From: Halococcus salsus
Lineage (GTDB): Archaea > Halobacteriota > Halobacteria > Halobacteriales > Halococcaceae
Direction of reading: 5' to 3'
DNA length: 64,000 bases
NCBI RefSeq assembly: GCF_009900715.1
Contig: NZ_JAAAJC010000003.1
Location: 248,001 to 312,000, forward strand
Shown: piece after piece, positions 5,943 to 9,481 of the stretch
How the letters are laid out: each line of letters opens with the position of its first letter
How positions within the stretch are numbered: position 1 is the stretch's first letter
Position numbers and translations under genes: made by a program
Notes under the pieces: model-generated
Seen by the model: the letters and a program-made list of their open reading frames with translations, nothing else
The model's database searches: none
What the model was told of the DNA's origin: nothing

Positions 5943-7250
5943 ATGGACGTGAGAGCCGTCGCCGACCTCTCGCCCGACGAGCGCCGTGCGGTGTTCGAGC
6001 GCGACGCGGGGATCGACGACATCGAGGGCGACGTCGCCGAGATCGTCGAGCGCGTTCGCACGGAGGGCGACGTCGCGCTCCGGGAGTTCGCCGAGGAGTT
6101 CGACGAGACGACCGTGGGATCGCTCGACGTGACCGACGCGGCCGAGCGCGCGTACGACGAGATCGACGCGGGTCTGCGGGAGGCCATCGAAACGGCAGCC
6201 GAGAACATCCGTGAGTTCCACGAGCGCCAGCTGCCCGAGGACTGGCGCGAGGACTTCGATGGCCGAGAACTCGGACGACGGTACCGACCGATCGACCGGG
6301 TCGGGGCGTACGTGCCGGGCGGGGCGGCGGCCTACCCCTCCAGCGCGCTGATGACGGTGATTCCGGCGAAGGTGGCTGGCGTCGAGACGGTCGCGGTGGC
6401 GACGCCGCCCGCCGACGAGATCAACCCCGCGACGCTCGCGGCGCTCCACGTCGCCGGTTCGGACGAGGTGTATCAGGTCGGCGGTGCGCAGGCGGTGGCG
6501 GCGCTGGCGTACGGGACGGAGTCGGTCTCGCGCGTGCAGAAGGTCGTCGGGCCGGGGAATCGGTGGGTGACGGCGGCGAAGGCCGCAATCCGAAACGACT
6601 GCGCGATCGACTTCCTCGCGGGGCCGAGCGAGGTCTGTGTGTTGGCCGACGGGACGGCGGACCCCGAGTTCGTGGCGGCGGACCTGATCGCGCAGGCCGA
6701 GCACGACGCGAACGCGTCCGCGGTGGCGGTGACGGCCGACGAGGAGCTCGCGGAGGCGGTCGCGGCGGCGGTCGAGGCGGGTATCGAGGGCGAGCGGGCG
6801 GAGACGATTCGGGAAGCGCTCGAAAGCGACGCCAGCGGGGTGTTCCTCGCGCGCTCGATGCCGGAGGCGGTGTTGTTCTGCGAGGAGTACGCCGCCGAGC
6901 ACCTCTCGATCCAGGCCGACGAGGACGAGGCGCTGCTCGACCGGATCAGTAGTGCCGGAAGTGCGTTTCTGGGGCCGTATTCGCCCGTGGCGGCGGGCGA
7001 TTACGCCGCCGGGCCGAACCACGTTCTGCCAACGGGTGGCGGCGCGCGGATCACAGGTGGGCTGTCGGTGGAGACCTTCCTGCGCTCGACGACGGTGCAG
7101 CGACTCTCGGCCGACGCGCTCGACGACATCGGTGAGACCGTCGAGACGCTCGCGCGGGCCGAAGGGTTGGATGCCCACGCCGAAAGCGTCGCCGTCAGAC
7201 TCCGCGAGCGCGAATCCGACGTGGAGGACGACGAGCGACTTCGGGAGTGA
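5943..7250 (+). CDS. hisD: Histidinol dehydrogenase
   Basis: 435 residues. It catalyses the last two steps of histidine synthesis, L-histidinol to L-histidine with two NAD+, as a cytosolic zinc enzyme. Family marks are RPIDRVGAYVPGGAAAYPSS (about 119-138), VQKVVGPGNRWVTAAK, DFLAGPSEVCVLAD, the metal-binding Q-A-E-H-D-A-N-A-S-A (near 250) and the catalytic Glu-His pair in EEYAAEHLSIQ (near 318), then GPYSPVAAGDYAAGPNHVLPTGG. CCGTTTTGAC near 5917 is the TATA position for a leaderless transcript starting at this ATG. No other his genes are nearby, which is usual in haloarchaea. Confidence 0.95.
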   Translation: MDVRAVADLSPDERRAVFERDAGIDDIEGDVAEIVERVRTEGDVALREFAEEFDETTVGSLDVTDAAERAYDEIDAGLREAIETAAENIREFHERQLPEDWREDFDGRELGRRYRPIDRVGAYVPGGAAAYPSSALMTVIPAKVAGVETVAVATPPADEINPATLAALHVAGSDEVYQVGGAQAVAALAYGTESVSRVQKVVGPGNRWVTAAKAAIRNDCAIDFLAGPSEVCVLADGTADPEFVAADLIAQAEHDANASAVAVTADEELAEAVAAAVEAGIEGERAETIREALESDASGVFLARSMPEAVLFCEEYAAEHLSIQADEDEALLDRISSAGSAFLGPYSPVAAGDYAAGPNHVLPTGGGARITGGLSVETFLRSTTVQRLSADALDDIGETVETLARAEGLDAHAESVAVRLRERESDVEDDERLRE

Positions 7251-7360
7251 GGGCTGGTGCGGTTCGGTAGTGCTGTCGGGGCGCGTTCGGAGGTGCGGTC
7301 GGAGCGGGTGCGGTCGGCGGTTGGAGCGGTTGGCGCGCGCTCGCGGTCGTGGGCGAACGG

Positions 7361-7418
7361 CGAGGTTCGAGCGAAGCGAGAACCTCGAATGCGAACGGGG
7401 AACGAAGTGACCCGTGAG
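7361..7418 (+). repeat. 58-base inverted repeat, left copy, with internal hairpin
   Basis: The reverse complement of this segment matches 8221-8278 at 56 of 58 positions; the two differences are both T/C. Inside it CGAGGTTC (7361-7368) pairs with GAACCTCG (7380-7387) around an 11-base loop made of GAGCGAAGCGA. It is non-coding on both strands. Confidence 0.9.
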
Positions 7419-7482
7419 CCACGGTGAGCGCGCGACCGCGGACACTGTGCGAGGTCTGCGCGAGTACTGCGAGCGCAGGCTC

Positions 7483-7501
7483 GTCAGAGCGGAGCTCTGA
7501 C
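7483..7501. repeat. Perfect 8-bp hairpin with GGA loop
   Basis: GTCAGAGC, loop GGA, GCTCTGAC. It lies 230 bases after the hisD stop in the GAGCG-rich spacer, too far and without a T-run to be a clear hisD terminator. Confidence 0.7.
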
Positions 7502-7742
7502 GGTGGATGAGTGGAGTGAGCGCAGCGAACGGAGCGAATCGGTTGGGGAGGCGTGTGGCGGTTGCGGGGCGGAAGCGGAGGGGGAGTCAGTAGTGACTGT
7601 ACCGCGAGCGAGGCCGGAGGCCGAGCGAGCGGCAGTTTTTAGTCCAGGTTTTTCAAGGAGTGGTGTCCGACCAGCGGAAGGCCACCCGACGCAGAAAAAA
7701 GTGGGGCGTCATGGTTAACTTTCTTCGGCGGATATGTGACGT

Positions 7743-8105
7743 ATGAGCACGGCTGGAACCGCCGACACCGCGACCGAGATCGACGTCTCGACGTCGGCCG
7801 CCGAACAGGCACTCGACCTCCTCGAAGGCGAGGGTATGGACACCGACGTCGCCGGGCTTCGGTTGTTCGTCCAGCAGGGCGGCTGTGCCGGGCTTTCCTA
7901 CGGCATGCGCTTCGACGGCGAGCCCGAGGAGGACGACCAGGTCTACGAACACCACGACCTCCGGATCTTCGTCGACCCCGCGAGCATGAACTACATCGGC
8001 GGCAGCGTCCTCGACTTCGAGGGCGGCCTCCAGGGCGCGGGCTTTCACGTCGAGAACCCGAACGTCGTGAGCGAGTGCGGCTGCGGGGAGAGTTTCCGGA
8101 CCTAA
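7743..8105 (+). CDS. HesB/IscA family iron-sulfur cluster assembly protein
   Basis: 120 residues, A-type Fe-S carrier. The three conserved cysteines are present: one in the QQGGCAGLSYGMRFD segment (near residue 44) and two in the C-terminal CGCGESF motif (near 113-115). The protein would bind a [2Fe-2S] or [4Fe-4S] cluster, or iron, and pass clusters to apo-proteins in the cytosol. The first 20 residues are an acidic Thr-rich extension. GGTTAAC near 7717 supports a leaderless start here. The gene stands alone between two non-coding arms holding a near-perfect inverted repeat. Confidence 0.9.
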   Translation: MSTAGTADTATEIDVSTSAAEQALDLLEGEGMDTDVAGLRLFVQQGGCAGLSYGMRFDGEPEEDDQVYEHHDLRIFVDPASMNYIGGSVLDFEGGLQGAGFHVENPNVVSECGCGESFRT

Positions 8106-8497
8106 GGCCCCCACCCACCTTTTGCTGCGGTCGCTCGCTAGCGCTCGCTCCCTGGCAAAATGTGGATCAAAAGCGCGTCGGGTTCCTTGCAGTCACCCTC
8201 GCGCCCGCTCGCTCGTTTCGCTCACGGGTCACTCCGTTCCCCGTTCGCATCCGAGGTTCTCGCTTCGCTCGAACCTCGCACCACTCGCTCGCGGTACAAC
8301 AACTACCCTCTCCGCAACCGCCCCGCACAGCACCGCTTCCGCCTCCGCCGAAGCCCTCGCGCCCGGAGGGCGCTCGCCCTTCATCCACCAGGAGAGCGGT
8401 GCTCTCTTGAGCCTCGGCTTGCTCCCGCTCGCCGAGACACCAGGCACCGCAACCGCCCGCCCCGCGGCGCTCGCGGGGCGCGCCCCGCTCGCGCACC
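8106..8497. other. Gene-free spacer with CGCTCGCT motifs and right repeat arm
   Basis: 392 bases between the HesB-like gene and the MBL hydrolase. It holds CTCGCT/CGCTCG runs (for example 8127-8150), the right copy of the 58-base inverted repeat (8221-8278) and further CGCTC-rich stretches to 8497. No convincing coding frame on either strand. It mirrors the composition of 7251-7742 in opposite orientation. Confidence 0.65.
8221..8278 (-). repeat. 58-base inverted repeat, right copy, with internal hairpin
   Basis: Matches the reverse complement of 7361-7418 at 56 of 58 bases. The internal stem is CGAGGTTC (8252-8259) with GAACCTCG (8271-8278) around an 11-base loop. It lies 116 bases after the HesB stop. 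Confidence 0.9.
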
Positions 8498-9481
8498 TCA
8501 CTCGCTCACGTCGGGGAAGAACTCGTCGAGGTCGGGGTCCGAATCGACGAGTCGATACCCGTCTTCCGTGGGCTCGGTGACACCGTGCGCCGAGAGGTGG
8601 TCGAGGTGCGCGTAGGCCTCGCCCGGCCCGTGGAGGATGTGGATGTTCGAGAGCTCACCAAATAAGTAACTGCTCACCGTCCACGCGTCCGCCGGGCCGT
8701 GTTCGCGGAGCACGTCGAGCACGTTCTCGGTGCGCTCGCGGTGGTGTGCGGCGATGTCGCGGGCGCGGCCTGCGGGGTCCTCGATGACGTCGCGGTGACC
8801 GGGCCACGCCCGGACGAATCCCGCGTCGATGATTCGAACCAACGTGTCGAGGTACTTCGCCAGCGGGCGCTCGACGCGAACGTCCGCCCCGCCGACGTTC
8901 GGGGTGTAGTGGGGCAGGAGCGCGTCGCCCGAGAGGAGTTCCCGACCGTCGTCGCCCTCGAAGACGAACCCCGAGAGCCCCGCGGCGTGGCCCGGAAGGT
9001 GGAGCGCTTCGAGGTCGCCCTCGGGGGTCGAAAACCGCTCGCCACCCTCGAACGGCTCGACCCTCGCCCGCCCCGAGAGGCCCTCGTAGCCGTCGAGGAA
9101 GACGAGGAGCTCCTCGCGTGGCTCCTCCGGTACCCCCCATTCGTCGAGAAGCGCACGCTGGCGGGCCTCCATCGCCTCCCACGCGTCCGTATCACCCGAG
9201 ACCAGCGGCGCGTCGGCGGCGTGGACCCGAACCACCGCGTCGCTTTCGTCCTGTATCTCGCTCGCGAACCCGGCGTGGTCCTCGTGCCAGTGGGTCAGGA
9301 GGACCTCGTCGATGTCGGCGAACTCGACCCCCAGATCGGCGAGACCTGTCGAGAGCTCCTCGCGGGTCTCGGGCGCGGCGGTCCCGGTGTCGACGAGGGT
9401 GGTGGCCCCGGCGTCCGCACCGAAGACGTAGACGTCGTTCAACCCCTCGAAGACGGCGTTCCCGAGCTGGATCCGGTTCAT
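8498..9481 (-). CDS. MBL-fold metallo-hydrolase
   Basis: 327 residues. The metallo-beta-lactamase metal motif H-x-H-x-D-H is seen as LLTHWHEDHAG (near residue 63-69), with further ligands in LEALHLPGHAAGLSGF (His near 160), LLSGDALL (Asp near 180) and AWPGHRD (His near 222). The C-terminal 90 residues form a helical, winged-helix-like segment (LDVLREHGPADAWTVSSYLF, then LDHLSAHGVTEP), as in LACTB2/YflN-type members. The likely activity is hydrolysis of a thioester, lactone or phosphodiester; the substrate is unknown. It is transcribed toward the repeat-rich spacer. Confidence 0.85.
   Translation of the reverse strand: MNRIQLGNAVFEGLNDVYVFGADAGATTLVDTGTAAPETREELSTGLADLGVEFADIDEVLLTHWHEDHAGFASEIQDESDAVVRVHAADAPLVSGDTDAWEAMEARQRALLDEWGVPEEPREELLVFLDGYEGLSGRARVEPFEGGERFSTPEGDLEALHLPGHAAGLSGFVFEGDDGRELLSGDALLPHYTPNVGGADVRVERPLAKYLDTLVRIIDAGFVRAWPGHRDVIEDPAGRARDIAAHHRERTENVLDVLREHGPADAWTVSSYLFGELSNIHILHGPGEAYAHLDHLSAHGVTEPTEDGYRLVDSDPDLDEFFPDVSE

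Follow-up and report, generated by a model that had tools for sequence, protein, structure and literature searches.

Why should a gene for an A-type Fe-S carrier stand between two nearly identical copies of a short sequence in opposite orientation? This is the arrangement found around a hesB (IscA-type) gene (7743..8105, + strand; Pfam PF01521 Fe-S_biosyn, E 8.3e-17) in the window, the whole stretch of 64,000 nucleotides of the Halococcus salsus genome that was analysed, and two answers had been offered in a first-pass annotation: either a cassette, mobile or invertible, with the Fe-S gene as its cargo, or repeat elements that landed twice. The reading that we favour, with a probability of roughly two in three, is that the 60-base repeat belongs to a haloarchaea-wide family of mobile double hairpins that spreads by insertion into hairpin tips, and that hesB is a bystander. 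It draws on the observed dispersal of the repeat, the paired changes in its stems, its presence and absence at orthologous sites, the loop register of its insertions, the exchange of hairpin tips and an orientation that is neutral with respect to genes.

The repeat itself is real. Its arms, at 7360..7419 (left copy, + strand) and 8220..8279 (right copy, inverted, - strand), are 60 nt long, 800 nt apart and complementary at 58/60 positions (97%), which extends by one base on each side the 58-base inverted repeat, matching at 56/58, that had been annotated; a 25-base probe from the unit finds, with up to 3 mismatches, 2 places in the window, namely, the two arms, and 0 in 100 dinucleotide shuffles. 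The annotated 8-bp stem with an 11-base loop is found in both arms (hairpin 1, 7361-7387 and 8252-8278), and each arm contains a second hairpin (hairpin 2, 7391-7419 and 8220-8248) in which ACGGG and CCCGT enclose an 11-base loop within an outer GC / GC clamp. The unit thus delimited comprises 60 bp with two internal hairpins on one strand, and its ends read GCGAGG ... GTGAGC. Hairpin 1 follows the plan CGAGGTTC-GA-NN-GNA-N'N'-GA-GAACCTCG and hairpin 2 the plan GC-GA-ACGGG-GA-NN-GNA-N'N'-GA-CCCGT-GA-GC, each being capped by GA-NN-GNA-N'N'-GA, that is, a GNA triloop, two base pairs and tandem G.A mismatches. An RNA folding model returns the two-hairpin plan for both window copies on the GA strand, and a DNA folding model returns the same structure except for the last 2-bp step of hairpin 2. 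A permissive search of Rfam with positions 7000-8700 yielded no match.

The mirror-like composition of the flanks, also pointed out earlier, reaches beyond the unit: 7469-7612 aligns, inverted, with 8284-8422 (68%, E 3e-7), because two composite hairpin islands in opposite orientation flank hesB, with one unit in each. The left island (7251..7742, + strand) lies in the hisD-hesB gap and includes a module C hairpin (7602..7632, + strand), in which base pairs alternate with tandem GA mismatches around a GGA triloop, as well as the module D T-tracts TTTTTAGTCCAGGTTTTT (7636..7653, + strand). The right island (8106..8497, - strand) occupies the gap between hesB and a convergent gene with the metallo-beta-lactamase fold; its module D (8113..8174, - strand; CTTTTGATCCACATTTTGCCAG ... 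GCAGCAAAAGGTGGG) ends just 3' of the hesB stop.

To what extent is the two-hairpin plan a property of the unit at large? Unit matches covering at least 50 of the 60 query bases, taken with 40-base flanks and with identical strings of flank plus unit counted once, make up a set of 51 copies; column counts come from the 33/51 that are exactly 60 bases long (29 of them distinct), and the covariation set is 28 of these 29, the remaining copy having been left out because one inserted base shifts its register. Among these 28 distinct units, 97.6% of 532 stem cells are paired vs 89.9% in shuffles, 9/19 stem pairs have changed on both sides (4.4 in shuffles) and the covariation score is 0.234 (0.093 in shuffles); none of 500 shuffles reaches any of the three values, scores of the covariation type being inflated by kinship among copies. 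When partners are slid by 1-3 columns, only 25-41% of the cells pair. Non-standard cells are, in our count, few (7 G-T and 4 A-C among 493), and such rarity of one-sided intermediates is what would be expected if both arms of a stem changed in a single event.

The sequence GCGAAGC is present, exact, within the first loop of each window copy, and C-GNA-G caps predominate in a sample of 464 kb made up of the window and 20 stretches of 20 kb. In the portions of the two sources that we draw upon, GCGAAGC is entered as a solved hairpin (PMC5430850), a hairpin with a 2-bp stem is tabulated as melting at 76.5 C (PMC10527192), and C-GNA-G caps are unusually stable DNA mini-hairpins (PMC5430850, PMC10527192). 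The d(GCGAAGC) mini-hairpins share the cap motif of the unit and are known physico-chemically, not as a genomic repeat family. We take the 76.5 C hairpin and the GCGAAGC hairpin to be the same molecule.

In the genome to which the window belongs (G000; 3.52 Mb, 30 contigs), matches to the 60-base unit number 24 at E<=1 and 22 at E<=1e-3, and the unit is found in 10/10 Halococcus genomes, with 4 to 24 copies each when at most 40 candidates per genome are scored, as opposed to the hundreds that the first-pass annotation had named as the mark of ordinary intergenic sequence. At E<=1e-5, the unit is recognized in 84/190 genomes of the order, from 35/66 genera (Halococcus included), in a search that scored about 4 candidates per genome, so that its per-genome counts are lower bounds. 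The contexts examined in other genera share the two-hairpin plan and differ in their tips; three genomes contain tandem arrays of the unit (L205 in G154, L206 in G089 and L207 in G072), and that of G154 has 5.4 repeats of 70 bp, 99% alike. Each window copy has the other as its best match in G000 (97%), the next best being 93% in G000 and 95% in G002, the closest relative (HesB 98%); judging from these sequences, one copy may have been derived from the other, or both from a common recent source.

Shorter signatures of the family are more widespread still in some cases. The fixed word GCGAACGNAGTGAGC occurs in 181/195 genomes of the order vs 20/195 for its backward control (23 places, counted by hand), and in the 10 Halococcus genomes it occupies 466 places vs 9 for the control (again a hand count); in six genomes of another family, 20/20 sampled places of this word are noncoding. 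The T-tract word of module D is present in 16/117 genomes; the 9 Halococcus genomes included in that search have 18-28 copies apiece. Across 78 loci, mostly from other genera, the difference in loop complementarity is modest and counts against the favoured reading, 17/123 noncoding vs 47/659 coding, with 3 of the 17 noncoding matches supplied by L054, apparently the same contig as G008. The exact pattern GAGCGAAGCGAG was found at 34 places, a count for which the backward control is uninformative because the word reads the same backwards.

The surroundings of the hairpins were examined in the 464 kb sample, where a codon-based gene caller left 387 intergenic gaps. The motif GA-NN-GNA-NN-GA has complementary NN in 79/150 intergenic vs 21/324 coding occurrences, and all stems of at least 5 but one belong to the intergenic complementary class. 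Gaps with one or more such hairpins, counting stems of at least 2, number 32/387 and are long (143-1183 bp); all hairpins are on one strand in 18/20 multi-hairpin gaps, and most hairpin gaps, read in the orientation of their hairpins, represent one modular element. Fuzzy search over the 32 gaps recovers modules B and C in 23 gaps each and module D in 19, and wherever all three are present (15/15 gaps) their order is B, C, D. In L144 and L151, the modules run opposite to the strand assigned from the hairpins, so this assignment is approximate for gaps with few hairpins.

Is the unit, then, an optional part of these islands? In G002, which keeps the hisD-hesB-MBL gene order, the right copy is cleanly missing from inside the loop of its host hairpin (8205..8294 in the window, - strand; CCGC-GA-GC-GA-GT-G ... 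A-AC-GA-GC-GA-GCGG): the sequence CCGCGAGCGAGT ... GAAGCGAGCGAGCGGG runs uninterrupted in G002, whereas in the window the unit divides it and its second half reads GAAACGAG. The left unit is missing in G002 as well, amid ~170 bp of differing sequence, and for this reason its site does not provide a clean empty-site test. The earlier suggestion of repeat elements that landed twice is thereby upheld, in that the unit is dispersed (the 22 matches in G000) and the right copy, at least, is lacking at the orthologous site. A unit of G000 stands at C3:190k, where G002 carries another hairpin; at C3:201k, G002 has the unit and G000 a different hairpin; and at C3:199k, the G002 sequence is unrelated to that of G000. 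An empty match that spans the joined flanks exists for 26 of the 51 distinct Halococcus copies, and these 26 alignments contain no consistent target duplication.

The insertions favour one position. If the register is defined by flanks that pair with exactly 3 unpaired bases on the left side and either 3 or 1 on the other, a geometry in which the unit separates the G from the A in a host GNA triloop, 20/51 copies are in register, against a mean of 0.4 and a maximum of 3 in 200 shuffles; 31/51 copies are outside it, some with hosts that could not be paired. The flanks pair over 4.3 bp on average vs 2.6 with shuffled right flanks and 3.3 with the right flank reverse-complemented, and since the latter control exceeds the shuffle, base composition explains part of the pairing. 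In L014, L015 and L168, the unit is opposite in orientation to the host module, as judged by eye from the flanks.

The tips of the hairpins are exchanged, too. Five orthologous pairs of islands in G000 and G002 show 74-79% identity over all aligned columns, with backbone segments that align well, and in 4/5 pairs the module C hairpins have different tips, complementary in both versions (e.g. GGCC-GGA-GGCC vs GCGC-GAA-GCGC); the fifth pair is where the right unit is inserted. Among 29 distinct tips between the fixed stems of this module C host hairpin, 19 close fully, 16 of these on a GNA triloop, as against 0.28% of shuffled tips, and the open real tips include several long unrelated matches.

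How might such a unit move? The hairpins would take shape in cruciform or single-stranded DNA, a setting in which the C-GNA-G cap would be unusually stable; a tip would be opened by a structure-specific nuclease, our guess being Mre11-Rad50, or by stalled replication; and repair of the opened tip would take another hairpin of like design as its template, that is, proceed by template switching. One type of event could in this way produce either a swap of tips or the insertion of a whole double hairpin. In its most general form, the scheme would imply an order-wide kind of mobile DNA whose defining feature is shape and not sequence, with GNA-capped, GA-stacked hairpins of single-stranded DNA copying into one another's tips, having no transposase of their own and always restoring complementarity; this generalization we put forward tentatively, with the odds against it. 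If a mobile double-hairpin family is indeed involved, it would be a natural repeat family built on an unusually stable GNA mini-hairpin, its structure kept while the sequence turns over; loop tips would be insertion targets, making for a testable case of palindromic repeats that move without a transposase; and recombination hot spots would be predicted at haloarchaeal intergenic islands, with which the clade-varying gene beyond the hesB island may be compared.

But is a mobile element needed at all? Template switching and gene conversion that take place passively during replication, at microhomologies like GAGCG shared by many similar short hairpins, would agree with the presence of GAGCG / GAAGCGAG words at the boundaries of many hairpins, with the wholesale exchange of tips between orthologs, with the tandem unit arrays and with the lack of a consistent target duplication in the empty-site alignments. 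However, the unit is recognizable across those 35/66 genera, its two-hairpin composition and its ends are kept where contexts were read, which a patchwork would not obviously preserve, and the insertions are concentrated in one loop register, so that we consider this passive process unlikely, albeit deserving of serious attention.

Could selection act on the hairpins as RNA instead, keeping the stems paired because they serve as terminators or as elements of 3'-end processing or stability? As RNA, the GA strand of the unit has a far more stable fold than its complement (-28.8 vs -21.8 kcal/mol), and in the energy model it folds better as RNA than as DNA; the islands contain T-tracts, and a T-run stands just after hesB in several species; and hairpins are found upstream of Haloferax termination sites in the part of PMC7237163 on which we rely. 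Yet the orientation of the hairpins is independent of the neighbouring genes, with 15 sense and 21 antisense in same-direction gaps and hairpin-bearing gaps of all four types (-+ 10, ++ 8, +- 5, -- 9), and G-U cells are rare in the stems, barely above A-C (7 vs 4 of 493). Because hairpin orientation ignores genes, the terminator reading is weakened, and the hairpins do not fit the intrinsic terminator proper, for which a fixed orientation 3' of genes would be expected; a role in RNA of any of these kinds appears quite improbable.

Returning to a mobile double-hairpin family, the unit is best read, by analogy, as akin in behaviour to the SMR-A of Haloquadratum walsbyi and to fungal mitochondrial double-hairpin elements. 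In the passages of PMC3119063 that concern them, SMR-A comprise three families (HqIRS42, 43 and 55) of ~110 bp with terminal inverted repeats, which insert into palindromes near the ends of PATEs and of IS605-type transposons, with no target duplication and by a mechanism given as unknown. The unit resembles SMR-A, as described in those passages, in being short, transposase-free, haloarchaeal and present in tens of copies, in the absence of target duplication and in its insertion within the palindromes of other repeats, seen here as the 20/51 copies in loop register; it is set apart by its 60 bp, by two internal hairpins in place of a terminal inverted repeat, and by its targets, which are GNA-capped hairpins of composite islands, those of SMR-A being PATEs or IS605 ends. 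Without the terminal repeats and the size of SMR-A, it is not classed as one, and it bears on the question left open for the Haloquadratum SMRs, namely, how transposase-free palindromic repeats move. The Allomyces elements of Paquin and coworkers (from the year 2000) reportedly consist of two adjacent GC-rich hairpins, and we know of no loop design, host-loop targeting or order-wide sharing among them. Two adjacent hairpins that are optional at orthologous sites are found in the unit, too. The double-hairpin elements of Allomyces mitochondrial DNA are reported to be mobile in the section of PMC7218506 that mentions them and, going by that section, are the closest in form to the unit, but they are mitochondrial and fungal. 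Common descent being implausible, the likeness is one of analogy.

REPs need a RAYT Y1 transposase and a GTAG-type tetranucleotide, and Y1 transposases recognize DNA hairpins. Might such an enzyme, IS200/IS605- or RAYT-like, move the units in trans as non-autonomous elements, in the manner of PATEs or REPs? One Y1_Tnp gene is present in G000, and haloarchaeal PATEs are derived from IS605 according to the same passages of PMC3119063; however, Y1_Tnp is absent from 3/10 Halococcus genomes, two of them 97-99% complete, that nevertheless carry 7-23 units, the counts of units and of Y1_Tnp have a Spearman correlation of -0.61 (p 0.06, n=10), and insertion is within the loop, with no fixed flanking tetranucleotide among the flanks inspected. 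Given that the phyletic pattern disagrees, we allow this mechanism only a slim chance. As dispersed intergenic palindromes in composite mosaics, the units do resemble REP, BIME and REPIN elements (PMC12306157; see also PMC3116915 and PMC2817692); they differ from REPs in being present in 10/10 genomes vs Y1_Tnp in 7/10 and in a stem sequence that varies within a constant loop frame. Two assignments do not fit, a REP / RAYT system, given the lack of a linked Y1 transposase and the negative correlation of counts, and a MITE, given the lack of a terminal inverted repeat and of a consistent target duplication in the 26 empty-site alignments. We found no description of the unit or the islands in the literature on haloarchaeal or Halococcus intergenic hairpin families, subscription papers being outside the scope of this search. 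Short palindromic mobile repeats are known as a kind; it is the conserved shape together with the targeting of loops that distinguishes this unit.

What remains of the Fe-S gene as cargo? The gene, whose protein has its nearest named relatives in Halococcus morrhuae and H. thailandensis (88%), has hisD (+) and the metallo-beta-lactamase-fold gene (-) as neighbours and is single in 10/10 Halococcus genomes; hisD adjoins it in the same orientation in 5/5 species where the two are neighbours, and 10/10 Halococcus genomes have, 3' of hesB, an island whose hairpins are on the strand opposite the gene (L052 and L053 apparently being records of G003 and G009). Among the Halococcus genomes compared, units are found beside hesB in G000 alone. 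Site-specific or homologous flipping of hesB between the arms is extremely improbable, for although near-identical inverted arms 800 bp apart could in principle be used by homologous recombination, hesB has the same orientation in all comparable relatives, no unit was seen at hesB in other species, the arms are members of a genome-wide family, and no recombinase is encoded in or beside the segment, where hesB alone lies between the arms. The comparison of the locus in relatives that the first-pass annotation had proposed thus reveals no flip, and its cassette has to be abandoned; as far as genome sequences can be compared, hesB is neither carried nor flipped by the repeat and is a bystander.

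Two further features of this locus deserve mention. In several species, the end of the island supplies a short T-run close behind the hesB stop (TTTT in the window genome; window 8106-8130 and equivalents), which may act as a hesB terminator. The gene beyond the 3' island differs among clades, with four kinds observed (L132-L141) next to an island of constant presence and polarity, as if islands marked the breakpoints of rearrangements.

Other arrangements of hairpins were encountered in the same material. A second type of double-hairpin insert, TGGTTCGAAA (hairpin) TTTCGTCATCACGAGA (hairpin) TCTCGAACGA, has freely varying stems and is nested in the loop of another hairpin (L161:18569-19122, L154:17620-18802, L052:5660-5860). 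Behind some tRNA-like genes, their own 3' ends are repeated several times with hairpins in between, e.g. GTTCAAATCGGGGAGAGCGGA three times, as seen by eye (L143:12743-13737 on the - strand, L154:12127-12577, L154:17620-18802), and in other genera (L218, L219, L223) units were likewise noticed by eye just 3' of tRNA-like ends.
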